DNA of 56,875 nucleotides from a virus: IMG/VR virus record IMGVR_UViG_3300025617_000805, positions 1 through 56,875 of that record; one strand, written 5' to 3'. The position numbers were made by a program, and so were the translations under genes. Below are positions 12,395 to 33,065 of the stretch, one piece after another. The notes below the pieces were generated by a model that did no database searches, was not told where the DNA came from, and was given only the letters and a program-made list of their open reading frames with translations. The first letter of the stretch is position 1, and every line of letters begins with the position of its first letter.

Positions 12395-13252
12395 ATGATA
12401 AACATTGTTGTTACAAGCAAACCTGTAGACGGTCTATTCTATTATAGTTATGAATATTGCTCACTGCTAAATGATGCTGGAATAGATGCACAAGTAGTGG
12501 TAATACCGCATCGTAAATTTACTCCTAAAGACTACCTCAATGTAATTACAAACAAATACATTCATTGTAAAAATATCCAAGTCGATACATATCTTCCATA
12601 TGACGACGATATTACTTTAATAATGGGTCGAAGCATGATGACTCTTTCGTGGCAGGAGTTTAATGACTATGATGCAGAATATCAAATGTCATTAAGTAAA
12701 TTATTTGGTGGCAAGGTAATAAGTGTATATTCAGAAAACCATCCTACTAAATATCCCCTTGCAGTGAAGTTTTACAAACCTACACAGATTGTAAATTTAT
12801 GCGATACAGAAGTTTATCCTAATGGAGTAGGTGCTTACTTTGAAAAACGCATTAACTTTGATATTTACAAACCGCATACCAACGATATACAATTTAAATA
12901 TTTGTTCTTCGGCACTAATGACAAGTACTATGCGGCTGCCGAAAAACTTTTACACAAATATTCTGATTATGGAATCTTGACATATGATACAGAGTATGTT
13001 AATATAAAAAATAATAATGTTTTTGTACCCGTACCTAATATTTTAGGCATGTTTGACACATATGTGTATACTAAAGAAACATTCGATCCTGCACCAAGAA
13101 TAATACAGGAATGCAAATATTACGGCAAGAACATGATATACGAAAGAGATGAATCAATAGTAGATGGCGGCAGTGTGTATTGGCAGAGAGATATTCAAAA
13201 ACCTAATATACAATCGATATTAAAAGCAGTAGAGGCATTAAATGAAAATTGA
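12395..13252 (+). CDS. glycosyltransferase-like protein (GT-B type), 285 aa
   Basis: First gene of the plus-strand biosynthetic island. The N-terminal half (IVVTSKPVDGLFYYSYEYCSLLNDAG) looks like a Rossmann-like acceptor domain that starts with a glycine-containing loop; the C-terminal part has FDPAPRIIQECKYYGK, which resembles the donor-binding D-x-x-P-R-x-x-x-E element of GT-B enzymes. Proteins of this type recur in marine T4-like phages. The ATG has no strong ribosome site and a TATGAT lies only 9 bases upstream, so promoter and leader are uncertain. The next gene overlaps by 11 bases. Confidence 0.45.
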   Translation: MINIVVTSKPVDGLFYYSYEYCSLLNDAGIDAQVVVIPHRKFTPKDYLNVITNKYIHCKNIQVDTYLPYDDDITLIMGRSMMTLSWQEFNDYDAEYQMSLSKLFGGKVISVYSENHPTKYPLAVKFYKPTQIVNLCDTEVYPNGVGAYFEKRINFDIYKPHTNDIQFKYLFFGTNDKYYAAAEKLLHKYSDYGILTYDTEYVNIKNNNVFVPVPNILGMFDTYVYTKETFDPAPRIIQECKYYGKNMIYERDESIVDGGSVYWQRDIQKPNIQSILKAVEALNEN

Positions 13253-13589
13253 TCCTAAATGTTTAAAGTTTTCAAAAGATAACAAAGGAGCAGCATACAC
13301 GTCAGATGGATTTATGCTTCCTTGTTGTTGGATGGATGATCCTCCTGTTTATCGTTATATAAAAGCCTGTGGATTAAAAGACGAAGAACTTTTATTATCG
13401 AATAACGAACGATTAGAAGATATCTTTACATCCGACCAATGGGAAAAATTTTTCCAAACCCTTTTAAATGATCCAGAAAATGCATCTTATATGTGTAAAA
13501 AGAAATGCGGGGTTGATATAGACATGGAAAAAGTAAGGGCAGAAGAAAAAATAGAAGTAATGGAGCAAAGTAGTGGAAAGAATTACTGA
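13242..13589 (+). CDS. free-standing SPASM-like Fe-S protein (copy 1)
   Basis: A 115-residue protein resembling the auxiliary-cluster domain normally fused to the C-terminus of SPASM radical SAM enzymes: K-C (C7), then a strand and turn SDGFMLPCCWMDD (C28, C29), C43, and a late CKKKC (C85, C89). The same arrangement is seen in the 110-aa protein at 23190 (C8, C26-C27, C80-x3-C84) and, fused in one chain, in the enzyme at 30437. It overlaps the radical SAM gene that follows by 17 bases, so the two are probably made together and form a split enzyme. Cluster content is inferred. Confidence 0.6.
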   Translation: MKIDPKCLKFSKDNKGAAYTSDGFMLPCCWMDDPPVYRYIKACGLKDEELLLSNNERLEDIFTSDQWEKFFQTLLNDPENASYMCKKKCGVDIDMEKVRAEEKIEVMEQSSGKNY

Positions 13590-14310
13590 CAAGTATGTAG
13601 AATTTCAACGATATTGCAGACCTAACATAGATGCTTCACATAGATGTATTTTTCAATGTCCACAGTGTATTAGACAAAGAACTAGTAGTCAAAGTCAAAT
13701 TAAAAGAAGTTTTGATTTAGAACCAGAACAATTTAAAAAAATACTTAGCTACTACGACTGCGGACTTACATTTTGCGGTCAGATATCTGATCCTATATAT
13801 CATAAAGACTTTTTATCTTTATTAAAATTGTGCAACGGACAGGGTAAAGCTGTCAGAATTGCTACCGTCGGTAGTGGCAAATCTGATGCTTGGTGGGAAG
13901 AAGCATATAGCTACGGGGTTGGCGAAAATGCTTGGTATTTTGGCGTAGACGGCATTGACGAAAAAAGTGAACTTTATCGTATAGGTTCAAATTTTCAAGA
14001 TGTTTGGTCAAGAATGAAACAAGGCAGAGATCTAGGACATGCAATAGTGTGGCAATATATTATTTTTGGATATAATGAACACGAAATAGATCGTGCAATT
14101 GAAATTGCCAAGGAAGAAGATTTTAGTCTATTATTTGTCAATACTAATAGGGGGTTTAATCCTGATAGCCCATTACTTAGAAAAAATGTAGATTTTAAAT
14201 TAACCAGTCCAGCTAACAAACATAGAGAGGATCGTGTTAAAAAGGAATGGTGGGGACATAAAACTAAAACATTCGAAAAATGGCGCGAAGTAGAAGCAAG
14301 GAGGCGTTAG
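13573..14310 (+). CDS. radical SAM protein, CX3CX2C (split from its SPASM-like partner)
   Basis: The [4Fe-4S] motif is C25-x3-C29-x2-C32 in a HRCIFQCPQCIRQR context. Downstream signatures FCGQISDPIYH, WYFGVDGIDEKSELYRI and WQYIIFGYNEHEIDRAIEIAKE are shared with the C-terminal half of the PP-loop fusion at 21809 and, more loosely, with the SPASM enzyme at 30437, so the three form one subfamily. At 245 residues it lacks an auxiliary-cluster domain of its own; the overlapping upstream gene supplies one. Start is GTG. It should generate a 5'-deoxyadenosyl radical; substrate unknown. Confidence 0.75.
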   Translation: MERITDKYVEFQRYCRPNIDASHRCIFQCPQCIRQRTSSQSQIKRSFDLEPEQFKKILSYYDCGLTFCGQISDPIYHKDFLSLLKLCNGQGKAVRIATVGSGKSDAWWEEAYSYGVGENAWYFGVDGIDEKSELYRIGSNFQDVWSRMKQGRDLGHAIVWQYIIFGYNEHEIDRAIEIAKEEDFSLLFVNTNRGFNPDSPLLRKNVDFKLTSPANKHREDRVKKEWWGHKTKTFEKWREVEARRR

Positions 14311-14317
14311 AAAAAAT

Positions 14318-15016
14318 ATGATTGAAGATTCATTAGGTAAAAGAAAACACGTTGTACATTACGACACTGAAATAATTCCTTCACGATCTGAAGTAGAAGA
14401 AATATTAAAAATAGGGTATTCACTTTCTACTTCTAAACAAAAAGCATTTCCCTATAAATTTTATGTTCTAGGTCCAGATAAAAATAGAAGTAAAAAGTTA
14501 TGGGATATGGCCGAAGGAAGAAAAATAGATGTAGATCGCGAAGCTTATGGTACAACACCTGATTCTGAAGAATATAATTCTAATCCAGGCCTTTACCATT
14601 TAAAAAGTGCTCCATATACGTTTATTATTACTCCTAGAATAGCTCCTCCAAATCCTCATTTTAAATGGCATTTCGAAGAAACAAACAGTATGTGGCAATT
14701 AGAAGACTATAATTTTGTGAACACAAAAAATAGAGAGTCATGTGCTATCGAAATAGGAATGTGCGCAAAGGCTATAACAGGAGCAGCATTAGATAGAGGG
14801 TGGGATGTTTCTTATAACGTATGCTTTTTTAAAGACAGAGAAAAATGGAGTTTTCTTCCTTGTATAGATTTTAGACCTGTGTTAATGATGACTTTAGGAA
14901 AAGGTAAAAGTTATTTTTACGAGCGGTTAATTCCAGATGGGAGTTTTAAAAATGATCCTAAATTTAATACATCGCCTCCGTTCGAAGATATTTTTCAATT
15001 TATAGACAATGAATAA
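14318..15016 (+). CDS. nitroreductase-family flavoprotein-like (copy 1)
   Basis: The 232-residue protein follows the nitroreductase layout: basic start LGKRKHVVHYD, then STSKQKAFPYKFYVLGP matching the FMN-binding S-x-x-N-x-Q-P-w segment, a central hydrophobic strand APYTFIITPR, and an Ala/Gly helix EIGMCAKAITGAALDRGWDVSY typical of the dimer-interface helix. It is one of three paralogues in this operon (16653, 17346). FMN-dependent reduction or dehydrogenation with NAD(P)H is the family activity; the real substrate is unknown. GGAGG lies about 15 bases before the start. Confidence 0.6.
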   Translation: MIEDSLGKRKHVVHYDTEIIPSRSEVEEILKIGYSLSTSKQKAFPYKFYVLGPDKNRSKKLWDMAEGRKIDVDREAYGTTPDSEEYNSNPGLYHLKSAPYTFIITPRIAPPNPHFKWHFEETNSMWQLEDYNFVNTKNRESCAIEIGMCAKAITGAALDRGWDVSYNVCFFKDREKWSFLPCIDFRPVLMMTLGKGKSYFYERLIPDGSFKNDPKFNTSPPFEDIFQFIDNE

Positions 15017-15572
15017 TTTAGTTATCTTAAATCATTTTTACGGATATCCTGCATTAGAAGACGAGTTTTCTAATATGCAAAGGTATGCAAAATTATTAAA
15101 GTTAGTTGATATCATAGATTCAGAAAATACTATATTTTTAACTAATTTTATTAAAGGTCAAGATAGCAAACTAGAAAGTATTAGACAAATTTCTGAAAGT
15201 TATAATCATAAATGGTTAGACTACAAAGATAATCAAAGTATCGAAGAAATTATTAGTGCAATTAACGAAGTTTATCATGTAACAATTTCTCCAGAAACAA
15301 CAAACATAGTATTAGGCGGCACTAATACTGCTGGGTGCTTATTAAGAACTAGTTTTGTATCTGCAAAAGAATGGGCTTCTAGAAATTTTAATGTACATTT
15401 TTGTTTATCAATGTGTGCAGATTACGAATTAGACGGTGTTAATACAGCAGAAAAAAATCAAATAGCTTCTGCTATAATGTATCGTTTTATAAAAAATAAC
15501 AAATTAACGAATAACATAAATGTATGTTATGATCCTAGAGAACTAGACATAAAAGAAAATATTAACAGGTAA
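15009..15572 (+). CDS. isochorismatase/cysteine-hydrolase-fold protein
   Basis: Residues 99-115 (NIVLGGTNTAGCLLRTS) match the nucleophile strand of isochorismatase-like cysteine hydrolases, with C110 in place of the catalytic cysteine, and FNVHFCLSMCADYELDG corresponds to the following strand and acidic loop. The first strand reads LVILNHF, so the usual catalytic Asp is replaced by Asn (N8) and no clear catalytic Lys is seen. Either the enzyme is altered or the fold is used for binding. It overlaps the nitroreductase-like gene by 8 bases and lies 5 bases from the DegT gene. Confidence 0.5.
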   Translation: MNNLVILNHFYGYPALEDEFSNMQRYAKLLKLVDIIDSENTIFLTNFIKGQDSKLESIRQISESYNHKWLDYKDNQSIEEIISAINEVYHVTISPETTNIVLGGTNTAGCLLRTSFVSAKEWASRNFNVHFCLSMCADYELDGVNTAEKNQIASAIMYRFIKNNKLTNNINVCYDPRELDIKENINR

Positions 15573-15577
15573 TTAAA

Positions 15578-16675
15578 ATGATATCGTACGACGGATGGGA
15601 CAGAGAGTACCAAGAGAATCGAGATGCCTACTTAGAAATCTTTGACCAGTTCATGAGTCAAATGAACTACGAAAACAACGAAGAATGGGAACGCAACTTT
15701 GCCCAACGTATAGGCCGTAAGCACTGTGTAAGTGTTGCTAGTGCTACAGACGCATTGCACTTTGCACTACTAGCACATGGTATAGGTCCTGGTGACGAAG
15801 TTCTAGTAACTAACTTCAGCTGGATCTCTAGTTCAAGTTGTGTTGACATGGTAGGTGCTACTCCTGTGTTTTGTGACATTGACTTAGACACTTATCAAAT
15901 GTCCTTAGACAGCGTACAACGCATGTACAGCGACCGTGTAAAGGCGATAGTATATGTACACTTGTTTGGTGCTATGACGGACACAATCGCACTACAAGCG
16001 TTCTGTAAGGATCGTAACATAGTATTTATAGAAGATGCAGCACAAGCACTAGGCAGCAGTTTAGACGGAGTACATGCTGGAACTATTGGTGATTGCAGTG
16101 TGTTTAGTTTTAACAGCAACAAGGTAATAGCAGGCATCAATGGCGGAGGTGTTGTTCTTACAGACTATGACGAAATTGCTAAACGTGTAAAACAGATTCG
16201 CAGGCACGGTAAGGATAAAACATTTGATATTTTAGGTTATAATAGTCGCATGTATGTTCTCAATGCACGTATCATTGATCAACGTATGAAAAGTATCGAG
16301 GCTAATCAATCAAAACGTCAAGATATTGCTCGCCAATACAACGAAGCATTTAAGGATTTACCGATCGCAACACAAAAAGTTTCAAATGGCCTTAATCATA
16401 ACTACCACAAGTATGTTGTACGCTTTGTAGACAAAGATACTCGCAAACGTGTCAAAGATGCACTACAAGCAAGCATACACTACGAAACTCCTCTGAGTGC
16501 TAACGATATGTATAACAACATAGAACACAGGAGAGACGCTTGTACAGCATCTAAGACAGTTGCAAATACAGTATTGTCATTACCCATACATCCATGGCTT
16601 ACTCAGGAAGAGATAAGTAATGTCATAAAGACAGTTAAAAAGGAATTTATTCATGAGTGTGTTCGATATACTTGA
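15578..16675 (+). CDS. DegT/DnrJ/EryC1/StrS-family PLP aminotransferase
   Basis: The 365-residue protein is a full-length fold-type I sugar aminotransferase. Substrate-side signature: ASATDALHFALLAHGIGPGDEVLVTNFSW is split over residues 54-82; FIEDAAQALG carries the PLP-binding D153, and SFNSNK carries the Schiff-base lysine K182. Members transaminate nucleotide-linked keto-sugars, giving amino sugars for surface glycans. The gene is compositionally unlike its neighbours: two 60-base lines counted by hand (15721-15780 and 16021-16080) have 29 and 27 G+C, against 17 at 17041-17100 and 8 at 18781-18840. It ends 23 bases inside the next gene. Likely a separate acquisition. Confidence 0.85.
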   Translation: MISYDGWDREYQENRDAYLEIFDQFMSQMNYENNEEWERNFAQRIGRKHCVSVASATDALHFALLAHGIGPGDEVLVTNFSWISSSSCVDMVGATPVFCDIDLDTYQMSLDSVQRMYSDRVKAIVYVHLFGAMTDTIALQAFCKDRNIVFIEDAAQALGSSLDGVHAGTIGDCSVFSFNSNKVIAGINGGGVVLTDYDEIAKRVKQIRRHGKDKTFDILGYNSRMYVLNARIIDQRMKSIEANQSKRQDIARQYNEAFKDLPIATQKVSNGLNHNYHKYVVRFVDKDTRKRVKDALQASIHYETPLSANDMYNNIEHRRDACTASKTVANTVLSLPIHPWLTQEEISNVIKTVKKEFIHECVRYT

Positions 16676-17342
16676 TAAAAGGCAGCACGTACAAGAATTT
16701 GATCTACAGAATATACCAAAAAAATCATTAATCGAAGAGTGTTTACGGAAAGCATGGAAAGTTACTCCTTCTAAACAAAATTTTATGCCTTATACAATAA
16801 ATGTATTTGGTCCAGATAATGAAGAAGATAAATTAAAAATTTGGAGTTTAGCTAAATTTAATCAAAAAGATATAAATGAAAATAACACAAAAGAACACAA
16901 AGAGGATGGTGATAATCCAAATTTTCTTTATTTAAAAACTGCGCCATATATTCTTGTTATAAATCAAAGAGTATGTAAACCTAATCCTTTTGTTCAAACG
17001 CTTGTAGATATCAACAAATGTCATTTTGAACAAATGCATAGTGATCAAAAAAATCTTAGAAATGTAATGAAAACTACTGCGTTTGAAGTAGGATTGTTTA
17101 TTTCTAATCTGTGGTCATTTGCATTAGAATACAATATTGATCTAAATTGTAATGCATGTTTTCCTACAAATAAAAACGCTTGGCAAGAATTTCCTAATGT
17201 AGAACACGACGTTATAATGATATGCGCATTAGGATATTGTAAAATTCCTAGACGTAATAAACATACACAAGAACGTTTTCAACAAGATTTAAAGCCGGCT
17301 CCCCAAGAAATTATAAAATGGATTAATAAGAAAGGAGTTTAA
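16653..17342 (+). CDS. nitroreductase-family flavoprotein-like (copy 2)
   Basis: A 229-residue paralogue of the proteins at 14318 and 17346. It opens with LDKRQHVQEFD, has the FMN-site segment TPSKQNFMPYTINVFGP (38-54), the strand APYILVINQR and the helix FEVGLFISNLWSFALEYNID. The start lies 23 bases inside the DegT gene, with AAGGA upstream. Its C-terminus is polar and ends in a short Lys-rich helix. Sequence divergence from the other two copies is large outside the shared motifs, so the duplications are old and functions may differ. Confidence 0.6.
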   Translation: MSVFDILDKRQHVQEFDLQNIPKKSLIEECLRKAWKVTPSKQNFMPYTINVFGPDNEEDKLKIWSLAKFNQKDINENNTKEHKEDGDNPNFLYLKTAPYILVINQRVCKPNPFVQTLVDINKCHFEQMHSDQKNLRNVMKTTAFEVGLFISNLWSFALEYNIDLNCNACFPTNKNAWQEFPNVEHDVIMICALGYCKIPRRNKHTQERFQQDLKPAPQEIIKWINKKGV

Positions 17343-17345
17343 TTT

Positions 17346-18137
17346 ATGATGGAGGAACTATTTTCAAAAAGAAGACAGATAAGAGCTGCATGGGATCAAC
17401 AAAAATTACCCAGTACAGAATTAGTAAAAGATCTACTTAAACGATCTTTAAACATATCTCCATCTAAACAAAATTTGTATCCGTTTAAAATTCATGTATT
17501 CGGTCCGCATAATCCTGAGGAGAAACGAATAGTCGGCCAAATTTGTAATTTATTTAAAACCGGATCTGTTAATCACTGGGACGACGAAATAAAGGACGGG
17601 GACTTTAAAAGTTACCATGGAGAATTTAATTCTAAAGATCTTATGCTTGATGATAAGGGAAACGACTATCGTCTAGCGCCATGGGTGCTTGTTTTCGAGC
17701 AAAGACTTGCAAAGCCAAATAATTTTGTTTTAGAGCATAGTAAATTACACGGCGACAAGCCTGAAGATAGATTTACACAAGTTAATCCGGATAGATTTCG
17801 AGACATATGCAACACAAAATTAACATGCATAGAAATCGGAATGTTTATACAGAGTCTTGCAGGGTTATGTTTAGAAAATAAATTAGGTATAAGTTATATT
17901 CGATCATTCCCTGAGTGGTACTGGAACAAATTTACAAACAGTTATGTAAAAGATGTTAATACTATAGGAATGAATTGGTCTGATTTACCTGAGATTTCTG
18001 AAACTCCGTTAATGGTTTGTCAATTAGGATACGTTGCAGATGTTGAAGATTATTTACAGAGCAATAGTGTAAATCCAGAACTCCATCATTGGGAAAATAA
18101 ACCAGATCTAAACGAAATAATAAATTTTAAGACATAA
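17346..18137 (+). CDS. nitroreductase-family flavoprotein-like (copy 3)
   Basis: At 263 residues this is the longest of the three paralogues. FSKRRQIRAAWD at the start and SPSKQNLYPFKIHVFGP (38-54) mark the flavin site. The strand APWVLVFEQRLAKPNNFV and helix IEIGMFIQSLAGLCLENKLGISYIRSF correspond to the same elements in the others. The extra length lies in an insertion around residues 75-110. AAAGGAG precedes the start, where two ATG codons are adjacent (17346 and 17349). The gene is followed directly by a twitch-type radical SAM enzyme, which could receive electrons from or feed product to this flavoprotein; that is inference. Confidence 0.6.
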   Translation: MMEELFSKRRQIRAAWDQQKLPSTELVKDLLKRSLNISPSKQNLYPFKIHVFGPHNPEEKRIVGQICNLFKTGSVNHWDDEIKDGDFKSYHGEFNSKDLMLDDKGNDYRLAPWVLVFEQRLAKPNNFVLEHSKLHGDKPEDRFTQVNPDRFRDICNTKLTCIEIGMFIQSLAGLCLENKLGISYIRSFPEWYWNKFTNSYVKDVNTIGMNWSDLPEISETPLMVCQLGYVADVEDYLQSNSVNPELHHWENKPDLNEIINFKT

Positions 18138-18145
18138 ATTAGAAT

Positions 18146-19549
18146 ATGACTGATAGATTACCTAAATCTTTGACCAAAGGCGGTCCGGGTGATAAATTCT
18201 TAGGCAATGGCAAAGTAGATACTACAGAATGGTTTCAAGATATTGAGATTTTAGAAAATCAAATTAAAAATCAAGAGATTTGGTTTTGTACTGCTCCATT
18301 CCAACAAGTATATACAAACACAGACGGTTCTTGGGCTCCGTGTTCTTGGGCTTCTTGCGATTCGACCGGTCCGAATATTTATAATACGTCTTTAGAAAAC
18401 TGGTTTAAATACAATAATAACTTAAATCAACTTCGGCAAGAAATGATTACTCCTGGTAGCGATTTAACTTTATGTAAAAAATGGTGTCAATCTTGTATCA
18501 AACAAGAGTCAACATATGGCCGGTCTAGGAGACAGACTTCTTTAAAAATACAAACTAACGATCATGCACTATGGCCTAACATTAGGAATGCTGTTGAGGA
18601 TTTTAAAAAAACACAGTCAGGTATAGGAAAGATATCACATAAAGTTTTAGAGGTTCAAATAAAAGCATTTGGAAATCAATGTAATTTAGATTGTTTTATG
18701 TGTATGCCTAGTGATTCTAGTACAAGGATAACAACATTATCTAGTGAAGATTTAGCTGCACAAGAAGTCTTTGATAAAGAAAGATTAAAAATAGATAAAA
18801 ATATTAGTTCAAAAACATTTAATTTAAACGATATAATAGAACAAATAGTAAAAATAGCTCCGTACATATATAATTTAAAACTAATAGGCGGAGAACCATT
18901 AGTAATGAAACAGTATTATGAGCTGTTAGATAAAATTGTAAAATCTGGATATAGCCAAAAAATAATGGTAAAATATCAAACAAATATGTCAATTTTAAAT
19001 TTTGATAAAATAAAACTTAGTGATTATATTCCAAAATTTGAATCTTTTGAATTTACTGTGTCATTAGATAGTATAGGAATTGCGAATAATTATATTAGAA
19101 GAAGATCTACCTGGGAGGATATTGTTTCAAATATAAAAACTGTAAGTCAATATCCTAATGTAAGGATTAATATAAACGGTGCAATATCGTTTTTAAGTGT
19201 GTTAAGGTTTTACGAATTAATAGACTGGTACAACGATAATATTGAAATCTTTGGTAATGATTCACAAATAAATTGGTCTAATATAAGGAATCCTGCAAAG
19301 TTAAGTGCAAATGTTTTACCAATAGAGATAAAAGAATATCTTATCCCTAAGTACAAAAATTTTCCAGATATACAAAATTTGTTAAAAGAAGATTCTGGCG
19401 GTCTTGATTATCAAGATACTCTCGAGTACCTGCTGATGAACGATAAGTATTATAGAGACACTAAATGGAATTATAACTTATTTGACGTTTTTCCTGAATT
19501 AGAAAAATTCTATCAACCTGAGATTAAACCTATAAGGATTATTGAATGA
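18146..19549 (+). CDS. twitch/SPASM-type radical SAM enzyme (copy 1 of paralogous pair)
   Basis: The radical SAM motif is C179-x3-C183-x2-C186 (CNLDCFMC). Before it lies a Cys-rich N-terminal region (C48, C66, C71, C110, C114, C117) that probably binds an auxiliary Fe-S cluster, as in twitch-domain radical SAM proteins of marine phages. GGEPLVMKQYYELLDKIV is the conserved GGE strand-loop. The extreme N-terminus shares the nine-residue motif SLTKGGPGD (8-16) with the paralogue at 20325. The stop overlaps the next start (ATGA), coupling it to the PP-loop ATPase. Base composition here is extremely AT-rich. Confidence 0.75.
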   Translation: MTDRLPKSLTKGGPGDKFLGNGKVDTTEWFQDIEILENQIKNQEIWFCTAPFQQVYTNTDGSWAPCSWASCDSTGPNIYNTSLENWFKYNNNLNQLRQEMITPGSDLTLCKKWCQSCIKQESTYGRSRRQTSLKIQTNDHALWPNIRNAVEDFKKTQSGIGKISHKVLEVQIKAFGNQCNLDCFMCMPSDSSTRITTLSSEDLAAQEVFDKERLKIDKNISSKTFNLNDIIEQIVKIAPYIYNLKLIGGEPLVMKQYYELLDKIVKSGYSQKIMVKYQTNMSILNFDKIKLSDYIPKFESFEFTVSLDSIGIANNYIRRRSTWEDIVSNIKTVSQYPNVRININGAISFLSVLRFYELIDWYNDNIEIFGNDSQINWSNIRNPAKLSANVLPIEIKEYLIPKYKNFPDIQNLLKEDSGGLDYQDTLEYLLMNDKYYRDTKWNYNLFDVFPELEKFYQPEIKPIRIIE

Positions 19550-20328
19550 AAATTACACATGGGGGTCAAACAATAGACCTATTTCCAAAATATATTCCAA
19601 AATTAGCGCCAATATCGTTATCAGGAGGACTGGATTCAGCATCTTTATGCTATCTTGTATTAACACATTTTCCTGAAATAGAAATTTTTCCGTATACATG
19701 CAGAGATCAAAATGCTCCTAAAGATGCCGAATCTGCAGAAATGATTGTAAAATGGATGCAACAAACCTTTCCTAATAGTAATCTGCAAGATTTACAAATT
19801 TTTGATTTTAACGACAGAACAGAAGATTTTGTATCGTGGAAAGAAGTAAATGAAGTAAGAAAAAAATATCCTAAGTTTGAAAGTTTAACTGATATAGGTA
19901 TATCTAAACTTATTCAAGTTGATAGAATATCATGGAATCTTATGAAAAAATATCCAGGAGCGGTGCGATTAGACGGAATGACTAGAAATCCGCCTACCTC
20001 CGATATGAAAAAATTGGGATTTTTTGAAAAAGCCGAAAGACGCAGAGATAAGGAGCAACCATTAGTACAGGAATGGCGTACTGATTATGATAATAAAGTA
20101 TTATACATTTATCAAGCATATGCAAATGTAGATAAAAAATTTGTCGCAGGCGTATATAAAGACTATAATTTAATGGACAGTCTTTTTCCTTTGACAAGAT
20201 CATGTACAGGAACAGCTAAACAAACTGATAATTTTACTAAAGAATGTCATAAATGTTTTTGGTGCCACGAAAAGAAATGGGCGTTTGACTTAGAATGGAA
20301 AGAAGAAAAGGACAAACAGATAGCATGA
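19546..20328 (+). CDS. QueC/ExsB-like PP-loop ATP pyrophosphatase
   Basis: The ATP-binding PP-loop is SGGLDSAS at residues 26-33. The C-terminus carries a four-cysteine site C220-x13-C234-x2-C237-x2-C240 followed by WAFD, resembling the zinc site of QueC. N-type ATP pyrophosphatases adenylate a carbonyl or carboxyl group so that a nitrogen or sulfur nucleophile can replace it. A closely related domain is fused to a radical SAM domain at 21809. It is bracketed by ATGA overlaps with two twitch radical SAM genes, so the three are a translationally coupled unit. It need not act in queuosine or 7-deazaguanine synthesis; no QueD, FolE or transglycosylase is seen here. Confidence 0.7.
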   Translation: MKITHGGQTIDLFPKYIPKLAPISLSGGLDSASLCYLVLTHFPEIEIFPYTCRDQNAPKDAESAEMIVKWMQQTFPNSNLQDLQIFDFNDRTEDFVSWKEVNEVRKKYPKFESLTDIGISKLIQVDRISWNLMKKYPGAVRLDGMTRNPPTSDMKKLGFFEKAERRRDKEQPLVQEWRTDYDNKVLYIYQAYANVDKKFVAGVYKDYNLMDSLFPLTRSCTGTAKQTDNFTKECHKCFWCHEKKWAFDLEWKEEKDKQIA

Positions 20329-21806
20329 GTAAAAAAGATTTACCAGAATCGTTGACTAAAGGCGGGCCAGGCGATAATTCTAAGCCTGGAGAAGTTAACA
20401 CAGAAGAATGGTGGAGAAAACTTGACGAAGAAGGTGAAATAATTGCTAAACAAGAAAATTCTATCGTACAGCAAGCAAAAAATAAAGATATTTATTTTTG
20501 TACTATTCCCTTTACTCAAATTTATTCAGAGATTGATGGACAATATTGTGCCTGTTGTTTCGGAGCACCTAGTGGACTAACAATAGAAGATACTACCTTA
20601 AAAGAGTGGATGGAAGATAGTAAATATATGAACGATCTCCGTAGAGAAATGACTACTCCAGGAAGTGATTTAAAAACGGTTGATCAACATTGTAGACGGT
20701 GTAGAGCAGATGAAGCACGGTACGGTAGATCTCGTCGAACAAATTGTTTAAAAATTCATACAAACGACCCTAAGTTTTGGAATAAAATTGAAAGACAAGT
20801 TTCTAAATACAAAGAATCTGGAGAATTTAAAATTGCAGATGAACGTATATTTGAAGTTCAGTTAAAAATATATGGATCGGAATGTAACTTAGATTGCTAC
20901 ATGTGCCAACATGCTAATTCAACTACACGCATGAATGTAGCAAAAAAAGGCGTTTACAGCGATTTAATTTTTGGAGAAATTAACCAAGAAAGGGAAGAAT
21001 ATTTTTCAATAGTAATGAAAGATAAAACTAAAGGAATTACAGAGCAAATTTTAGAAATAGCACCGTATATAAAAAGTATTAAAGTTATAGGCGGCGAACC
21101 TCTTATCATGAAGAAGCATTATGAACTTTTAGACAAATTAATTGAATCAGGAGATTCAAAAAGAATACGTATTAAATATCAAACAAATTTGACAGAAACA
21201 AAAGCAGGTAAACATAATTTATTTAAATATATACCACACTTTGATAGAGTAACAGTTGTAGCATCTGTAGACGGCATTGGTGCTCCTATAGAATATATGC
21301 GGAGAAGAACTGTTTGGGATAAAGTTGTTGAAAATATAGAGTTTTGCAAAGAATATCCTAACGTGGTTATCGATTTTAACGGTTTAGTATCTTTTCTAAG
21401 TGTATTAAGATTTTACGAGGTAGTAGATTGGTGCAAAGAAAATCCAGTAGTGCATCAATTGAACTGGGCTCATGTAGACAATCCAAAACACCTACGTCCT
21501 AATAATTTGCCGGAAAAATTAAAAAAACAACTCATACCAAAGTATCAAGACTGGCCCGATATAATTGCAGCTTTAGAAATGCCGCAAGATCCTGATATTA
21601 ATATTCAAGATATATTTGAATATCTTTTAAGAGCTGATGAATTTTACAAAGGAACAAAATGGGAAATGAATTTATTTGACGTCTTTCCTGAATTAGAAGA
21701 GTTTTATGTCCCGCAAGAGATTACTCCAGAAAAAGAAGAAATGTTTAAATCTTGGGACTATAGCGTTAAAAAACAAGAAGAGTTAGCTGATAAGAATATT
21801 CTTTAA
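20325..21806 (+). CDS. twitch/SPASM-type radical SAM enzyme (copy 2 of paralogous pair)
   Basis: I place the start at ATG 20325, overlapping the previous stop as ATGA, rather than at an upstream ATG (20295). This gives MSKKDLPESLTKGGPGD, which aligns with the start of the enzyme at 18146. The radical SAM motif is C187-x3-C191-x2-C194 (CNLDCYMC); N-terminal cysteines C59, C75, C77, C78, C123 and C126 probably bind an auxiliary cluster. GGEPLIMKKHYELLDKLI is the GGE motif. The whole 493-residue protein is paralogous to the 18146 product. It is followed after two bases by the PP-loop/radical SAM fusion. Confidence 0.75.
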   Translation: MSKKDLPESLTKGGPGDNSKPGEVNTEEWWRKLDEEGEIIAKQENSIVQQAKNKDIYFCTIPFTQIYSEIDGQYCACCFGAPSGLTIEDTTLKEWMEDSKYMNDLRREMTTPGSDLKTVDQHCRRCRADEARYGRSRRTNCLKIHTNDPKFWNKIERQVSKYKESGEFKIADERIFEVQLKIYGSECNLDCYMCQHANSTTRMNVAKKGVYSDLIFGEINQEREEYFSIVMKDKTKGITEQILEIAPYIKSIKVIGGEPLIMKKHYELLDKLIESGDSKRIRIKYQTNLTETKAGKHNLFKYIPHFDRVTVVASVDGIGAPIEYMRRRTVWDKVVENIEFCKEYPNVVIDFNGLVSFLSVLRFYEVVDWCKENPVVHQLNWAHVDNPKHLRPNNLPEKLKKQLIPKYQDWPDIIAALEMPQDPDINIQDIFEYLLRADEFYKGTKWEMNLFDVFPELEEFYVPQEITPEKEEMFKSWDYSVKKQEELADKNIL

Positions 21807-21808
21807 AA

Positions 21809-23185
21809 ATGATTTTAACATATAATCAAAAATCAATTGATTTTTTTAACTTTGATGTTCCAAATAAAGTGCTACTTTCGTTATCTGGGGGTTTAGATTC
21901 TGCATCACTTTTATACATCATTTGTTATTATATTCCACGAATCGAAGTCATTCCATTTTGTGCAAAAGATATAAGGTCTCCTAATGATTATTATTGCGCG
22001 GAAAAAATTGTAAAATGGATACAAAAAGAATTTCCTAATAATAAAATTAATAATTTACATGTATTTGATTTTGACATGTACGATCTTAAAATGAAAAAAG
22101 AAATACGTACAGCTCGGAAAAAATTTTCTTACATGAAAGAGTTACCAGATCCGGGCGTTTCTAAGATAATTCAATTAGATAACATTTTAAAAAATATACA
22201 AGAAAAATATCCTGACGCATTGTTAGTAGACGGTATTACAAAAAATCCTCCCTTAAAGGTTATGAAAAAGAATAATGTATTTTTGGAAAAAGCAGAAAAA
22301 AGAAGAAATTATACAAAAATACAAGCACAATTAAATAACGGAATTTATAAACCATTTGTAAACGTGGATAAAAAATTTGTTGCAGATATTTACAAACACC
22401 ACAATTTGTTAAAAACTTTATATCCTTTAACAAACTCATGTGTTGGATCAGCAGAAGATACTAATAACCATACAAAAGAGTGTCATAATTGTTTTTGGTG
22501 CTATGAAAAAGGATGGGCATTTGATTTAGATTGGTGTAAAGAATTTTTTCCATGTAAAGAAAACAAAAAATTTAAAAGAAATTTTTTCCACAGAACTGAT
22601 CGTCTTAATCTCGATCTTTCATATAGATGTCCTTTAGAATGTCCACATTGTTCAAGGCAACGTGATTATGTTGAAAAAGGAGAAAAAATTCCAGGAGAGG
22701 ATCTTACATATGAAAATTTTGTCAAAATTACAAAATTTTCTAAGAAAATACATTTTTGTGGACAACTTTCAGATCCTGTACATCATCCTAATTTAATAGA
22801 TTTTTTAAAACTCTGTTATGAGAGAAACATAGATACAAGTATTGCGACTGCATCTTCTTTTAAATCAAAAAATTGGTATATAGAAGCATTTAAATCTAAT
22901 CCAGATGCTAAATGGTTTTTTGGAATCGACGGACTACCAAAAGACAGTTCTAAATACAGGATAAATCAGGACGGCGAAAAACTATACAATATAATGTGCG
23001 AATCAACAAAATATCTTAATCATAAACCATTCTGGCAATATATTTTATTTCGATATAACCAGGACGATATTAATACTGCAATAAAACTATCTAAAGAACA
23101 CAATGTAAATTTCTTATTAATTAATTCTGCCAGATGGCGAGACTCTAATGACAAACTCATACCTACAAAAAACATAAAAATTTAA
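21809..23185 (+). CDS. fusion of PP-loop ATP pyrophosphatase and radical SAM domain
   Basis: Residues 1-245 are a PP-loop domain paralogous to the 19546 product: SGGLDSAS at 26-33, zinc-type cysteines C211, C225, C228, C231, then WAFDLDW. Residues 258-458 are a radical SAM domain with C274-x3-C278-x2-C281 in SYRCPLECPHCSRQR, plus FCGQLSDPVHH, WFFGIDG and FWQYILFRYNQDDI, matching the protein at 13573. I know of no standard family with this domain order. The frame is continuous with no sign of a joining error, and the two halves occur as separate genes elsewhere in the operon. The free SPASM-like protein follows after 4 bases. Confidence 0.75.
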   Translation: MILTYNQKSIDFFNFDVPNKVLLSLSGGLDSASLLYIICYYIPRIEVIPFCAKDIRSPNDYYCAEKIVKWIQKEFPNNKINNLHVFDFDMYDLKMKKEIRTARKKFSYMKELPDPGVSKIIQLDNILKNIQEKYPDALLVDGITKNPPLKVMKKNNVFLEKAEKRRNYTKIQAQLNNGIYKPFVNVDKKFVADIYKHHNLLKTLYPLTNSCVGSAEDTNNHTKECHNCFWCYEKGWAFDLDWCKEFFPCKENKKFKRNFFHRTDRLNLDLSYRCPLECPHCSRQRDYVEKGEKIPGEDLTYENFVKITKFSKKIHFCGQLSDPVHHPNLIDFLKLCYERNIDTSIATASSFKSKNWYIEAFKSNPDAKWFFGIDGLPKDSSKYRINQDGEKLYNIMCESTKYLNHKPFWQYILFRYNQDDINTAIKLSKEHNVNFLLINSARWRDSNDKLIPTKNIKI

Positions 23186-23189
23186 ATAT

Positions 23190-23522
23190 ATGAAAAAATT
23201 AAATCCTATGTGTTTTGATCAAAAGATCGGATATGCTATAACAAATCGGGGACATTTAATACCTTGTTGTCGCTGTGATCATATTATGAACGACAACGAT
23301 ATTGACTTTCAAAAATTACTGGCAGTTAGTAATATTTCTGATTATGAAAATATTGAGGATATTTTAAAAACTAAAGAATGGAAAAGATTTTATAAAAATT
23401 TATCCAAAGACATTGGACCACCATCGTGTTATAAATCCTGTAGTGCAGATAATAAAAAAAAGCAAATTAGTTACGGTATAGATCCATTAACTAAAGAAAA
23501 ATTAATTTATAGCGAAAGATAA
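23190..23522 (+). CDS. free-standing SPASM-like Fe-S protein (copy 2)
   Basis: A 110-residue counterpart of the protein at 13242: C8, a strand ITNRGHLIPCCRCD with C26, C27 and C29, a helix EDILKTKEWKRFYKNL, and a late C80-x3-C84. The helix before the last cysteines (DILK.KEWKRFYKNL here, DIFTSDQWEKFFQTLL in the other) aligns well, supporting common origin. It stands 4 bases after the fusion gene, so each CX3CX2C radical SAM protein of this subfamily in the island has its own separate SPASM-like partner. It is the last gene before the sigma70-type promoter at 23525-23553. Confidence 0.6.
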   Translation: MKKLNPMCFDQKIGYAITNRGHLIPCCRCDHIMNDNDIDFQKLLAVSNISDYENIEDILKTKEWKRFYKNLSKDIGPPSCYKSCSADNKKKQISYGIDPLTKEKLIYSER

Positions 23523-23575: not shown

Positions 23576-24436
23576 ATGGCTATAAAAACTTTAGAAGATT
23601 TAAAAGGATCAGAATACAGGACTGTTGATTTTTATCTTACTAAGTCATGTAATAAATCTTGTCACTATTGCACTGCATGGACTCTTGAAATGCGTAATCT
23701 CGAAGTTGATATGGAGTTTTTGCGTACAATTTTAGAAGGTCTCTCTCCATACAAAACACGTATTTGTTTATTAGGAGGAGAGCCAGGACTTATTAAAAAT
23801 TTAGATGAAGTAATTGCTGAAATAAAAAAGCATGAAAATCTTATAGTACAAGTTCTTTCAAATAGTCTTATTCGTAAATTTTATCCTAGTGTATTAGAAG
23901 ATCCAGACATTATATACATTGAACACCTTGTGTTAGATTTTTATGAAGATAGAATTGAAAAACTAGGTAGTTATGACTTTTTGCCAGAAAATGATAAAAA
24001 TAACTATAACTTGATCATAGAAACTCCTAACTACTTCAAATATAGAGAAAATTTTGATTTAAGTGAAATAGATCATAAAAACACAGAGTTTAAAGAATAT
24101 AATTCACGTTCGCCTGATTTTTATAAAGATCACGAACTTGTACAAGCACCTGAAATAGAAAGACGTATTTGTGCAAAGTTTCCGTTGGTTCCTGTTTTTG
24201 ATTTTGAAATACAAAAGATTAGACATTGCAGTAGAAAGGTTATTAACGGAAGTAGACAATTTGACGTTACAAAAGAAAACATTGATAAAATGATGACCTA
24301 CGAACTTTTTGAATTTGAAAATTATTGTGTAAATTGTTACGACATTATTCCGCCTAGACCACAAATGCGAAGAGAACAAATTTTAGAACAACTTAAAAAA
24401 GAAGAAGCAAACAAAATACAGACCCTGATGCTATGA
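23576..24436 (+). CDS. radical SAM protein with C-terminal cysteine cluster, 286 aa
   Basis: The radical SAM motif is C25-x3-C29-x2-C32 (CNKSCHYC), with LLGGEPGLIKNLDEVI as the GGE region. Three cysteines near the end (HCSRKV, then YCVNCYD) suggest a reduced auxiliary-cluster site. It belongs to neither the twitch pair nor the 13573 subfamily. It is followed with an ATGA overlap by the carbamoyltransferase, which in turn overlaps the methyltransferase-like gene in the same way, so these three form a coupled unit with their own sigma70-type promoter. Substrate unknown; context points to sugar or small-molecule tailoring. Confidence 0.7.
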   Translation: MAIKTLEDLKGSEYRTVDFYLTKSCNKSCHYCTAWTLEMRNLEVDMEFLRTILEGLSPYKTRICLLGGEPGLIKNLDEVIAEIKKHENLIVQVLSNSLIRKFYPSVLEDPDIIYIEHLVLDFYEDRIEKLGSYDFLPENDKNNYNLIIETPNYFKYRENFDLSEIDHKNTEFKEYNSRSPDFYKDHELVQAPEIERRICAKFPLVPVFDFEIQKIRHCSRKVINGSRQFDVTKENIDKMMTYELFEFENYCVNCYDIIPPRPQMRREQILEQLKKEEANKIQTLML

Positions 24437-25944
24437 ATATATTTGCAATTGCATTAAACATACATGATCATAATTGGTATGACGGTAAAACACACTATCT
24501 TGCAGAGCGTTATACTCGATGGAAACATAATTTAAATCCTGATAATCCGCAGGACCCTACTCCTAGCAGACATTTTTTTCTAGAACATTTTTTACCAAAC
24601 TACAAAAATCAAACAAACGATAATACATTTGCGTTTACTTGTTCAAATCTAGGACAACAATTTGTTATTGATCTTGTAGAAGAACACATAGGTGATAAAA
24701 GTTTCTTAGACTTTAAGCCTAAGAATTTATGGGATTATTACCAAACTGACAACTACTATTATATAGATCATCACCAAAGTCATGCTGTATATGCTTTGTT
24801 AAGTTCTGGATTTAGTAAAAGTGATGTTCTAGCCATAGATGGACGTGGATGGCAATTTAATTGCATCTTTGTTGACACAGAAGGAAACATTACAGACTTA
24901 TCAGACAAAGTTTCTATTGGCGGGTTATGGAACAGGTTATCGCAGGATCTTGGATTTGGATATCTAGGAGCAGGCAAAACTATGGGGCTCGCTGGCTTTG
25001 GAAAGTATAATCAAGACGTACATAGAATAATCGACGAATATCTTGAAAATCCTAATCATAAATTACCTAAAGATGCATACGGAGTATTAGAAACTACACC
25101 CAAAGAAGATGTAGCATTTACATTACAAGAATATACTGTAAACTTAATTAAAGAACACGTATATCCTTTAAAAACATCTGACAACTTGTGCATTGCAGGC
25201 GGAGTTGCATACAACGGTTACATGAACGAAGAATTTACAAAACACTATAAAAAAGTTCATGTGCCGCCTGCAGCAGGAGATGAAGGACAGGCAATTGGTG
25301 CATATATGCATGCTGACTTTGTTTTAAATAACACAATAAGTTCTCCTTCAGTTTATGCAGGATTAGAACACGACATAGATCCTATTATCTTTAGTGGATT
25401 AAATCGAGAAGAACTTCCGTTTGATAAACTTTGCATTCATGTTGCAGACGCTATTGCAAATGGTAAAATTGTAGGATGGTATCAAAGCAAATCAGAGAGT
25501 GGTAATAGAGCATTAGGTAATCGTAGTATCCTAGCCGATCCTCGAAATCCTAATATCAAAGATATTATTAACAGTAAAATTAAACTACGCGAAGACTTTC
25601 GTCCATTTGCTCCTAGTGTATTAGCAGAGCATTATAAAGATTATTTTGACACTAACCAATCGTCACCTTATATGAGTCGCATTATGCCTGTAACAAGTAA
25701 TGCTATTCCCGGTGTTACACACATAGACGGTACAGCAAGAATTCAAACCGTAACAAAACAATTTAATGAAAAATATTATAATTTAATAAATGAATTTTAT
25801 AAATTAACTGGCATTCCTATGCTACTTAATACTAGTTTTAATTGTCAAGAACCAATTGTAGAAACACCAGAAGATGCTGTTGCTACATTTAAAAAGTGTG
25901 GATTGGATATTCTAGTTATAGATAACTATTTGGTGAGAAAATGA
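24433..25944 (+). CDS. NodU/CmcH/TobZ-family O-carbamoyltransferase
   Basis: A complete 503-residue enzyme. The N-terminal Kae1-like domain has the metal site HHQSH (H113, H114, H117), AIDGRGW, and a GAGKTMGLAGFG loop; LCIAGGVAYNGYMNEEF and PPAAGDEGQAIGAY are the later ATP-site elements. The YrdC-like C-terminal domain has SESGNRALGNRSILADPR and REDFRPFAPSVL. Family members make O-carbamoyladenylate from carbamoyl phosphate and ATP and pass the carbamoyl group to a hydroxyl of a sugar, antibiotic or Nod factor. Relatives are carried by some marine phages. The acceptor is unknown but a sugar is a reasonable guess given the DegT enzyme and glycosyltransferases. Confidence 0.85.
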   Translation: MNIFAIALNIHDHNWYDGKTHYLAERYTRWKHNLNPDNPQDPTPSRHFFLEHFLPNYKNQTNDNTFAFTCSNLGQQFVIDLVEEHIGDKSFLDFKPKNLWDYYQTDNYYYIDHHQSHAVYALLSSGFSKSDVLAIDGRGWQFNCIFVDTEGNITDLSDKVSIGGLWNRLSQDLGFGYLGAGKTMGLAGFGKYNQDVHRIIDEYLENPNHKLPKDAYGVLETTPKEDVAFTLQEYTVNLIKEHVYPLKTSDNLCIAGGVAYNGYMNEEFTKHYKKVHVPPAAGDEGQAIGAYMHADFVLNNTISSPSVYAGLEHDIDPIIFSGLNREELPFDKLCIHVADAIANGKIVGWYQSKSESGNRALGNRSILADPRNPNIKDIINSKIKLREDFRPFAPSVLAEHYKDYFDTNQSSPYMSRIMPVTSNAIPGVTHIDGTARIQTVTKQFNEKYYNLINEFYKLTGIPMLLNTSFNCQEPIVETPEDAVATFKKCGLDILVIDNYLVRK

Positions 25945-26603
25945 TAGACGAAACTATTTTTAGAAATGTATTAAAAACTATAAAAGATAACCCAGAGTAC
26001 AGTGAAGATATTATTGATTCTTTTAGTGATAATCAGTTTGCATCTAAAGATGCGCTTCTTCATGCTATAGATTATCTTAATATTTTAAATAAAAATTCTA
26101 CAGTTGTACTTTGGGGGAGTTGGTACGGAAGCATTCTTATTCCTAAACTTGCAAATAAGATTAAAAGAATTGTATTAATTGATCTAGATTCAAAACCGCT
26201 CCAAATTTCAAAAAACAAAATGTTTCCTAATTATAAAAATGTTGATTACATATGTGACGATGTGTTTAAAACACGAAGAAAACTTTATAAAGAAACAAAC
26301 CTTATAATTAATACATCCTGTGAACATATGTCTCCTATGAAAGAGTGGCCTTGGTTTGGTCCAGGCGCATTACTAGCAGATGGATTGTCAGAAAAAGATC
26401 CTAGTATTTCAGATAACTGTTATTTTGCATTCCAGTCTAATAATATGTTTGGAATTGATGGACATGTTAATTGTGTAAATAGTTTAGAAGAATTTAAAGA
26501 TCAATTACCTGAACGAGCAAAAGTATTATACGAAGAAGAAGTAGAAGACACTAGAGGCACACGTTACATGCTAGTTGGTAAATTACTACCTATTACTTTA
26601 TAA
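25941..26603 (+). CDS. SAM-dependent methyltransferase-like protein
   Basis: The 220-residue protein has a Rossmann-type pattern: STVVLWGSWYGSILIPKLA as the first strand and turn, RIVLIDLDSKPLQISKNK as the acidic second strand, and a later DYICDDVFK. The next segment, LIINTSCEHMSPM, replaces the usual motif IV. It lacks a canonical G-x-G-x-G, so methyltransferase activity is probable but not certain. It overlaps the carbamoyltransferase stop as ATGA. Its last 40 bases overlap tail to tail with the SGNH gene on the other strand. Confidence 0.5.
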   Translation: MIDETIFRNVLKTIKDNPEYSEDIIDSFSDNQFASKDALLHAIDYLNILNKNSTVVLWGSWYGSILIPKLANKIKRIVLIDLDSKPLQISKNKMFPNYKNVDYICDDVFKTRRKLYKETNLIINTSCEHMSPMKEWPWFGPGALLADGLSEKDPSISDNCYFAFQSNNMFGIDGHVNCVNSLEEFKDQLPERAKVLYEEEVEDTRGTRYMLVGKLLPITL

Positions 26604-29245: not shown

Positions 29246-30453
29246 GGATCTATATTATACTCGTCTGCTAGTTTTAAAAACCAAGGCATTGTATTAAACA
29301 AATTTTGTTTCCTTGACTTGTCAAAATCTTTTGTTATACTAAAAAATTTGTGTATCCTGGCTATATCTATTGGTTGCTCATATGCATTTTCTAAAGTTTT
29401 TATAAGACTGTGTACATGCTGATGGATAAATTTCATATTTTTTAATTTTGTAATTTGTTCTAATAAAATATATTTTGGAACTAAGTTAAGTTGATTTGTA
29501 CCCATTATGTCTATGAAATAAAAACAAGTTTGTTTTCCGCCGATGCTGCCTAATTCACTATGAATTAAATCATAATAATTATGAGCATTTAGATTTTGCA
29601 TAGTAGTTGATATACCTACATTAATAGTGCTATGATCAACTATTTTTTCTATTTCTTTCCAGTTTTTTACAAGTTTAGTATAATTACCAGGCCACCTTAT
29701 GTAATTATACGTGTCACCTTCTCCATCAACACTAACAGAAATTCTGTTACTTTTAAATTTAGAAAATCTATCTATATATGAACTTATTTTATTAGTATAT
29801 AAATTAGTATTAAATTGCAAATCTATATTTTTTGCAGATCCATTTTTTATTAACAAATCTAAAATTTCATCAAAGAATTCGTTAACTAACGGCTCGCCTC
29901 CTACAGCATATATACCTGTTAAATTTTTACAACGATCAATAAATTCTAAAATAGAATCTTTTAATTTACGTGAAGGATTGTGATCAATTTCTCCTGTCCA
30001 TCTTCCAATATCTTTTAAATTTTTAGCAAGCAGTGTACTACTAGTTGCATCACACATTCTACATGCTAAATTACATTTGTTTCCTAGATTTAGATCTATA
30101 TATCTAATATCTTCGCAAGATAATTCTTTTTTAAAAGTTGATTCACTATAATGGATATGGCCGTTTGGATTAGTAGGATCGATAGCAGTTTTTCTAAAAC
30201 TTCTTGCGCCTATATCGTCAGCATTCCAACATCTAACACAAGTGGGATGTCTTTTATTTTCTAAAAAAGCAGACCTCACATCTTGCATGTAATTGTTATT
30301 TAAAATGTCGTCAATATTATCTACATCAAAATAATAAGGTTTTGGAATATCAAACGCACAACTACAACATTGACGCACTGAACCATATTGATCTAAACTA
30401 ACTGATATGAACGGAAAGGTACAATAATTTGTATACTTATTTAGATCGATCAA
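29239..30453 (-). CDS. twitch-type radical SAM enzyme, 404 aa
   Basis: Radical SAM motif C127-x3-C131-x2-C134 (CNLACRMC). The N-terminal region carries C11, C29, C30, C32, C72 and C75, in a layout of the type seen in other N-terminal-cluster enzymes here (CxxC-W after a helix). AVGGEPLVNEFFDEIL is the GGE motif and SVSVDGEGDTYNYIRWPG the later conserved strand. It overlaps the neighbouring radical SAM gene upstream by 17 bases. Together with 30437, 31657 and 33066 it makes a run of four consecutive radical SAM genes. Confidence 0.75.
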   Translation of the reverse strand: MIDLNKYTNYCTFPFISVSLDQYGSVRQCCSCAFDIPKPYYFDVDNIDDILNNNYMQDVRSAFLENKRHPTCVRCWNADDIGARSFRKTAIDPTNPNGHIHYSESTFKKELSCEDIRYIDLNLGNKCNLACRMCDATSSTLLAKNLKDIGRWTGEIDHNPSRKLKDSILEFIDRCKNLTGIYAVGGEPLVNEFFDEILDLLIKNGSAKNIDLQFNTNLYTNKISSYIDRFSKFKSNRISVSVDGEGDTYNYIRWPGNYTKLVKNWKEIEKIVDHSTINVGISTTMQNLNAHNYYDLIHSELGSIGGKQTCFYFIDIMGTNQLNLVPKYILLEQITKLKNMKFIHQHVHSLIKTLENAYEQPIDIARIHKFFSITKDFDKSRKQNLFNTMPWFLKLADEYNIDPW

Positions 30454-33015: not shown

Positions 33016-33065
33016 TCATACACCATTTTGTTAAAGTTATTTACGTTACGCTCTTAAAATTATAG

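Follow-up and report, generated by a model that had tools for sequence, protein, structure and literature searches.

Cassettes of radical S-adenosylmethionine (SAM) genes have been mentioned in phage islands (PMC7029224; PMC2853527), and the individual superfamilies of the enzymes considered here are already known. In pelagimyophages, such cassettes were noted in passing, unanalysed, in the "host recognition cluster" (Zaragoza-Solas 2020, PMC7029224), and the large Campylobacter myophages CP220 and CPt10 carry an interchangeable radical SAM cluster together with glycosyltransferase-like genes (PMC2853527). Here, we describe an island in the IMG/VR virus record IMGVR_UViG_3300025617_000805, whose whole stretch of 56,875 nucleotides is referred to as the window (window and record coincide). 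Four protein types occur in it twice: a radical SAM core with a CX3CX2C motif (RS3a and RS3b), a free SPASM/twitch-like domain (SPa and SPb), a QueC-like PP-loop protein (PP, and a second PP-loop domain fused to RS3b), and a twitch radical SAM protein (TW1 and TW2). A preliminary description of the window had stated that this combination matches no known pathway; no described match was found in the open-access literature searched, nor was the split radical SAM/SPASM and QueC-like module, its fusions, or its sharing by two phage lineages. Phages of abundant ocean bacteria hold many unexplained radical SAM genes, part of which now forms a defined, testable unit: a radical SAM enzyme in two pieces, a clade of QueC-like proteins without the motifs recently mapped in canonical QueC, and a backbone of sugar type.

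The T4-like Pelagibacter phage Mosig EXVC030M (MT647606) also has its island in the tail-fibre region, with the glycosyltransferase, RS3b, SPb, the DegT aminotransferase, a second radical SAM protein (R88), the carbamoyltransferase, and the methyltransferase in the window's order at 40-56% identity, whereas the QueC-like PP-loop gene, the LTKGGPGD twitch radical SAM, and the RS3a pair were not seen in it. Three CP220 proteins are RS3 homologues; however, no PP-loop gene was detected in CP220/CPt10, free SPASM is lacking (the proteins have about 330 amino acids), and an amidinotransferase-like gene replaces the carbamoyltransferase. TW1 and TW2 resemble the family NF033640 in having an N-terminal twitch domain followed by a radical SAM barrel, and differ from it in their conserved GGPGD N-terminal motif and in their association and fusion with QueC-like proteins.

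Core genes and the fusion

The seven genes on which the preliminary description was built are all present and intact (coordinates are on the + strand unless stated). SPa (13242..13589), a free SPASM/twitch-like iron-sulfur domain and putative partner of RS3a, overlaps the next gene, RS3a (13573..14310), a radical SAM core without an auxiliary-cluster domain of its own. TW1 (18146..19549) and TW2 (20325..21806; 84% identical to the homologues in loci L010 and L011) are twitch radical SAM proteins with an N-terminal LTKGGPGD motif, and between them lies PP (19546..20328), a predicted QueC-fold PP-loop ATPase with an SGGLDS loop and a C-x13-CFWC metal site. The fusion gene (21809..23185) joins the second QueC-like PP-loop domain (approximately residues 1-248) to the RS3b radical SAM domain (approximately 250-458) and is followed by SPb (23190..23522), whose adjacency suggests that it is the partner of the fused RS3b. 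The four paralogue pairs proposed earlier were borne out by blastp self-comparison (E 5e-134 to 2e-7), namely 18146 and 20325 (44% identity, E 5e-134), 19546 and the N-terminal half of 21809 (47%, E 1e-78), 13573 and the C-terminal half of 21809 (37%, E 7e-38; CX3CX2C common to both), and 13242 and 23190 (30%, E 2e-7).

The fusion gene comprises 458 codons, and a scan of 200 bases around its junction showed no in-frame ATG, GTG, or TTG. Two further IMG/VR contigs of this virus, which differ from the window by 2-3 single-nucleotide polymorphisms elsewhere, carry the gene with 0 mismatches across its 1,377 bp; the fusion is therefore real, and an assembly join is rejected as its origin. The preliminary description had named uniqueness together with such a join as grounds for doubt; the join has fallen away, while the PP-RS3 fusion is indeed private to this virus, none having been found in any other virus recovered.

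Free SPASM genes and their radical SAM partners

The free SPASM protein and RS3 are best read, from their sequences, as a single enzyme whose auxiliary-cluster (twitch) domain is encoded separately, because RS3 and SPASM also occur in one chain, are almost always found together, and keep conserved cysteines. One-chain forms are found in L010, in L122, and in the window itself, where 30437..31657 (- strand) is a radical SAM and SPASM paralogue of unsplit architecture (Pfam Radical_SAM 31.9 and SPASM 27.2 bits, both above cut-off; homologous RS3 domain). A free SPASM gene adjoins 133 of 149 short RS3 genes, counted without de-duplication, and is present in 56 of the 57 non-redundant loci obtained by an RS3a scan that applied no selection for PP or TW. 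It is usually upstream of, and overlapping with, type a RS3 (13573-like), and usually downstream of type b (21809-C-like). Among 134 distinct free SPASM proteins, the PCC motif and the last cysteine never vary, 132 retain the first cysteine and 129 the remaining one, and a cysteine pattern in common with the twitch domain is kept in 131. All 70 LTKGGPGD twitch proteins have a matching C-x-[PA]C[CS]-x-CxxC pattern inside their N-terminal twitch domain. Profile scores for the two window genes are low: 13242 and 23190 reach 13.9 and 19.7 bits against SPASM (PF13186), under the Pfam gathering cut-off of 21.5, and SPb is matched weakly by NF033640 through the N-terminal twitch region of that model. 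The fusion homologues support a putative physical RS3/SPASM complex with an auxiliary iron-sulfur cluster.

The RS3 and free SPASM pair is an obligate unit, to which the PP-loop protein and the LTKGGPGD twitch radical SAM are an optional add-on. The earlier view that the four types recur as a set did not hold in the form given: RS3 and SPASM are nearly always together, and the other two may be missing.

A QueC-like PP-loop family

The AlphaFold model of PP, built from a 25-sequence alignment (pLDDT 88.5), predicts a QueC fold. Structural comparison with VIA gave Z scores of 14.0 for Cap9, 13.1 and 12.2 for QueC (170-190 residues), and 12.7 for QatC; NcsA, LarE, and TtuA follow at a distance of about 2-3 Z. 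With the QueC family (PF06508, including Cap9 of type IV CBASS and QatC of qatABCD), PP shares this predicted fold, the SGGxDS phosphate loop (86 of 89 PP-family proteins; SGGLDS in both window copies), and a C-terminal four-cysteine site. In both window copies (19546 and 21809-N), this site has the spacing C-x13-C-x2-C-x2-C, unlike the canonical QueC zinc motif C(x)8CxxCxxC, and 82 of the 89 family members have some form of C-x(5-22)-CxxCxxC. The QueC substrate motifs YxQxHxxE, VPxRN, and YPDC (defined in PMC13329287) were each found in 0 of 89 PP-family proteins. Since these motifs are missing in all 89 members, PP is, as far as the model goes, a QueC-fold enzyme and not a canonical QueC; it is set apart further by being viral and by being fused to, or in operons with, radical SAM genes. 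Against PF06508 (cut-off 22 bits), the translated-protein scan gave 19.1 bits for 19546 and 25.5 for 21809, and the genome scan gave nothing above the cut-off. The ATP-dependent carbonyl activation that had been ascribed to PP is something that we infer only from the QueC fold and the SGGxDS motif.

Relatives of PP were absent from 50,697 records of known phages, and a PDB sequence search with PP and RS3 returned no useful relative. A cellular origin was also considered: a scan of a genome collection by exact short patterns found three loci only, with phage-like gene content. Because these loci look phage-derived, the scan yielded no cellular PP relative whose function is known. The PP domain of 21809 forms a deep branch of its own in the PP tree. 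The same islands often hold another PP-loop group, which ends in CWWC instead of CFWC (L012 7847-8518, L013 6730-7383, L018 4359-5048, and L042 9273-10687).

As QueC is the named family nearest to PP, the module might belong to 7-deazaguanine (queuosine/preQ0) metabolism, with a radical SAM protein as QueE and the PP-loop protein as QueC serving DNA or tRNA modification. QueE and QueC do perform consecutive steps of radical SAM and then PP-loop ATPase chemistry, and preQ0 genes are common in marine viruses. We nevertheless regard this explanation as very improbable, given that the canonical QueC motifs are lacking throughout the PP family, that QueD/PTPS was found in 0 of 11 phage records versus 9 of 14 control genomes, and that the genes have other partners, namely sugar-type enzymes.

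It is also quite unlikely that the PP-loop domain is a sulfur transferase of the NcsA/TtuA/LarE kind with an iron-sulfur cluster, through which the module would insert sulfur. Foldseek places NcsA, which has a [4Fe-4S] cluster, and TtuA near the top, and LarE and TtuA reach Z values of about 11-12 with VIA. However, Cap9, QueC, and QatC lead the VIA ranking, though with NcsA within about 2 Z, and the C-terminal C-x13-C-x2-C-x2-C fits the QueC zinc site in position and spacing type.

Twitch radical SAM proteins, co-occurrence, and fusions

On the NF033640 model for twitch domain-containing radical SAM proteins, TW1 reaches 281.9 and TW2 296.4 bits, over the curated cut-off of 170. Prokaryotic viperin (pVip) was rejected as an identity for them, with viperin_w_prok scores of 22.9 (18146) and 14.3 (20325) bits against a cut-off of 180. 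A PADLOC scan of nine core proteins returned weak viperin/QueC matches only, and among the neighbours annotated, a part of which was scanned, no CD-NTase or QatB gene of the kind that adjoins Cap9 or QatC was found.

PP is present in 43 of the 57 RS3a loci, and the LTKGGPGD twitch radical SAM in 33 of the 43 loci with PP versus 0 of the 14 without it (Fisher p 2.5e-7, the loci being related). Where both are lacking, nitroreductase genes usually occupy the slot between the aminotransferase and R88. Most of the SP, RS3a, and PP genes overlap, 4 or 17 bases being the usual extent, which may reflect translational coupling.

A PP-TW fusion was found in 13 distinct proteins, and the PP tree requires five switches of fusion state, of which well-supported branches make four unavoidable. 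The PP protein of L013 terminates in LTKGGPGDKKLEYA and a stop codon directly before a nitroreductase-like gene, and this ending looks like the stump of a lost PP-TW fusion. The preliminary description had argued from the window's fusion that the split genes are partners as well; PP-TW and RS3-SPASM fusions elsewhere agree with this, whereas the PP-RS3 fusion that it had taken as the mark is restricted to this virus, the commoner PP-loop fusion being with the twitch radical SAM. Its expectation that homologues of the parts would co-occur elsewhere was confirmed, as they are together in many viruses and in two unrelated phage lineages.

Two phage lineages

The giant structural protein of the window is about 30% identical to those of jumbo myophages such as Agrobacterium phage Atu_ph07 and the Pseudomonas phage Cassandra/Paride group. 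It is encoded by a single very large gene (45412-56832, - strand) with 3,806 codons inside the window, and in a longer contig of the same virus its open frame extends to about 4,926 amino acids. The window structural genes tested gave no match to the Mosig structural genes, including VrlC, and with a giant protein of jumbo phage type, the window was rejected as a T4-like pelagimyophage. The island is surrounded by tail-type genes. In T4-like phages, the host recognition cluster is placed between VrlC and gp14, a position that the window island does not have; because it nevertheless lies among genes of tail type, the island is analogous to the pelagimyophage cluster and represents a different locus.

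Among 24 records searched, the giant structural protein was found in nine, and a T4-type baseplate hub gave a strong match in six and a weak one in three more. No record had both, and PP is present in both groups. The module therefore occurs in two unrelated myophage lineages, the jumbo type represented by the window and relatives of T4-like pelagiphages.

The two lineages show two ARRANGEMENTS. In the jumbo-type group, PP and TW lie inside the backbone, whereas in the T4-like group they belong to an operon of their own, [nitroreductase]-TW-(nitroreductase)-SP-RS3a-PP, which adjoins the baseplate hub and has genes for an A-type iron-sulfur carrier and ferredoxin-like proteins nearby. In the T4-like L274 and L275, the backbone GT-RS3b-SPb-DegT-R88-carbamoyltransferase (GT, glycosyltransferase) is about 30 kb away from the module. 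Mosig was the only named phage record with the core glycosyltransferase.

In L187, L173, L174, and L200, by eye, A-type iron-sulfur carrier-like genes adjoin the separate radical SAM operon, some with 2[4Fe-4S] ferredoxin-like genes; these neighbours might serve it as sources of clusters or electrons. In most of the T4-like separate operons, PP is convergent with a sulfotransferase-like gene (PILISMPRxGSHYV, by eye; L187 11588-12409, - strand, and equivalents).

The backbone and a putative tailoring branch

The backbone begins with a glycosyltransferase of GT-B fold (12395..13252; AlphaFold pLDDT 91.2; 54% identical to Mosig_00083), the model of which gave VIA-align Z scores of 15.3 to the GT4 enzyme BshA and 15.0 to PimA over about 245-254 residues. 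The aminotransferase noted earlier amid the core genes is a DegT-type sugar/cyclitol enzyme (15578..16675; Pfam DegT E 4.5e-86), and its closest solved structure is glutamine--scyllo-inositol transaminase (7b0d, 220 bits). Of the "three flavoproteins" described earlier, 16653..17342 exceeds the Pfam nitroreductase cut-off (PF00881, 36.2 versus 23.5 bits), while the other two are assigned through homology to it: 17346..18137 (29% identity, E 5e-23; Pfam 18.3 bits, below cut-off) and the nitroreductase-like 14318..15016 (31%, E 6e-31; no Pfam match of its own). A small protein of unassigned function (15009..15572) has a similar-looking open reading frame, in the same order, in L122 (by eye). Downstream of SPb follow R88 (23576..24436; Pfam Radical_SAM 33.5 bits; 55% identical to Mosig_00088, annotated as MoaA-like), an O-carbamoyltransferase of the GdmN/TobZ/NodU family (24433..25944; Pfam Carbam_trans_C E 3.8e-67; best solved relatives GdmN and TobZ), and a methyltransferase-like gene (25941..26603; 51% identical to Mosig_00090, annotated as a putative methyltransferase; no Pfam match).

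We propose, with a probability of about 0.5, that the phage encodes an aminosugar or glycoconjugate pathway and that the module is a tailoring branch of it, present in some phages only. The island would then have two layers with a common pathway. The first, a conserved backbone (GT-B glycosyltransferase, split radical SAM with SPASM, DegT aminotransferase, second radical SAM, O-carbamoyltransferase, and methyltransferase-like protein), would build and decorate an aminosugar-type compound or glycoconjugate, and the second, an optional module (QueC-fold PP-loop ATPase, LTKGGPGD twitch radical SAM, and nitroreductase-type flavoproteins), would act together with the split radical SAM enzyme. An aminosugar or aminocyclitol conjugate is suggested by the DegT relative of scyllo-inositol transaminase, the GT-B glycosyltransferase, and the O-carbamoyltransferase related to GdmN and TobZ.

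In this scheme, whose substrate, order of steps, reaction type, and final product on the host surface or virion we infer, RS3, with the SAM cluster, and free SPASM, supplying the auxiliary cluster in trans, would assemble into the split enzyme. A carboxyl or carbonyl would next be uncovered as the radical SAM and flavin enzymes oxidise the substrate or rearrange it. The QueC-like domain would adenylate this group with ATP, and displacement of AMP by ammonia or an amine would yield an amide, amidine, or nitrile. With the ATPase fused to either radical SAM, the intermediate could be handed on directly. A bolder version, which we hold tentatively and at somewhat less than even odds, is a virus-specific pathway in which the trans-acting twitch/SPASM radical SAM, the LTKGGPGD radical SAM, the flavoproteins, and the new QueC-like clade add to an aminosugar conjugate made by the phage a group (amide, amidine, or nitrile) not seen before, and which has been exchanged between jumbo and T4-like marine phages.

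The main rival takes a virion or host protein as the substrate, since proteins are the known or proposed targets of Cap9 and QatC. The QueC-like protein would conjugate a group as Cap9 does: the top folds include Cap9, with its deazaguanylated partner, and QatC, their partners being modified, or proposed to be so, at the N-terminus. Many SPASM/twitch radical SAM relatives act on peptides, and the T4-like operon adjoins baseplate genes. No precursor-peptide or conserved partner gene was seen, however, in the tightly packed operons in a non-exhaustive look at small open reading frames. The LTKGGPGD tail is an internal linker in PP-TW fusions and is thus an unlikely N-terminal modification site. 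As the co-occurring enzymes are also sugar-type, we judge modification of a protein to be unlikely.

The tailoring-branch reading is favoured by the co-occurrence, overlaps, and fusions of the genes, by the predicted folds of PP and the glycosyltransferase, and by the presence of PP in both lineages. Also in its favour, the carbamoyltransferase occurs in 8 of 10 module-bearing T4-like records, including 5 of 5 of at least 50 kb, and rough dN/dS values (nonsynonymous to synonymous substitution rates) of 0.04-0.21 between the window and L010/L011 for PP, RS3a, RS3b, and both SPASM genes (TW2 excluded) suggest purifying selection. Several points weigh against it. The backbone can do without the module, as 14 of the 57 RS3a loci and the cultured phage Mosig have neither PP nor TW, and a GT-B fold together with DegT is no proof of a glycan. 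The baseplate-hub scan gave too few long contigs for a baseline of the backbone in T4-like pelagiphages. When ancestry was controlled, the tree offered only four independent PP contrasts, with TW changing in the same direction in 3.4 on average and never in the opposite one (p ~0.25), so the association is underpowered. Shuffling of neighbours showed PP beside RS3, SP, or TW in 19 of 41 cases against 13.9 +/- 2.4 expected, a modest excess. In the dN/dS estimates, dS is near or past saturation.

The modest neighbour excess and the underpowered association also lend weight to passive hitch-hiking, whereby unrelated cassettes would have gathered in a hypervariable tail-fibre island and their recurrence would stem from shared ancestry and recombination hot spots. 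Such hypervariability is known (PMC7029224), and gene order varies. Against this stand the fusion of PP to two kinds of radical SAM, the overlapping genes, the intact motifs, the low dN/dS, and the module and backbone sharing genomes in two lineages with different arrangements, and we consider hitch-hiking a doubtful explanation on the whole. Should the chemistry of the tailoring branch prove true, it would represent a new use of the QueC fold beyond tRNA modification and defence, an example of a radical SAM enzyme with its auxiliary cluster on a separate protein, and a handle on phage effects upon the host surface or virion. Since the backbone is present in the isolate Mosig, which grows on Pelagibacter HTCC1062, part of the scheme is open to testing in culture.

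Other features of the window

A second radical SAM block (29239-34604, - strand; genes at 29239, 30437, 31657, and 33066) contains no PP-loop genes and adjoins glycosyltransferase-like genes. Upstream of the island, two genes on the - strand encode AMP-binding (adenylate-forming) enzymes (5114-6256 and 10413-11171), both above the Pfam cut-off, and a fragment at 6207-6731 (- strand), 49% identical to the first and overlapping it, is perhaps a decaying duplicate. Parts of a tripartite tricarboxylate transporter are encoded at 6712-9192 (- strand), comprising TctA (Pfam E 1.7e-94) and, by eye, a TctC-like periplasmic protein; similar-looking TctA/TctC pairs are also found in L123 (4727-7931) and L275 (17696-19787).

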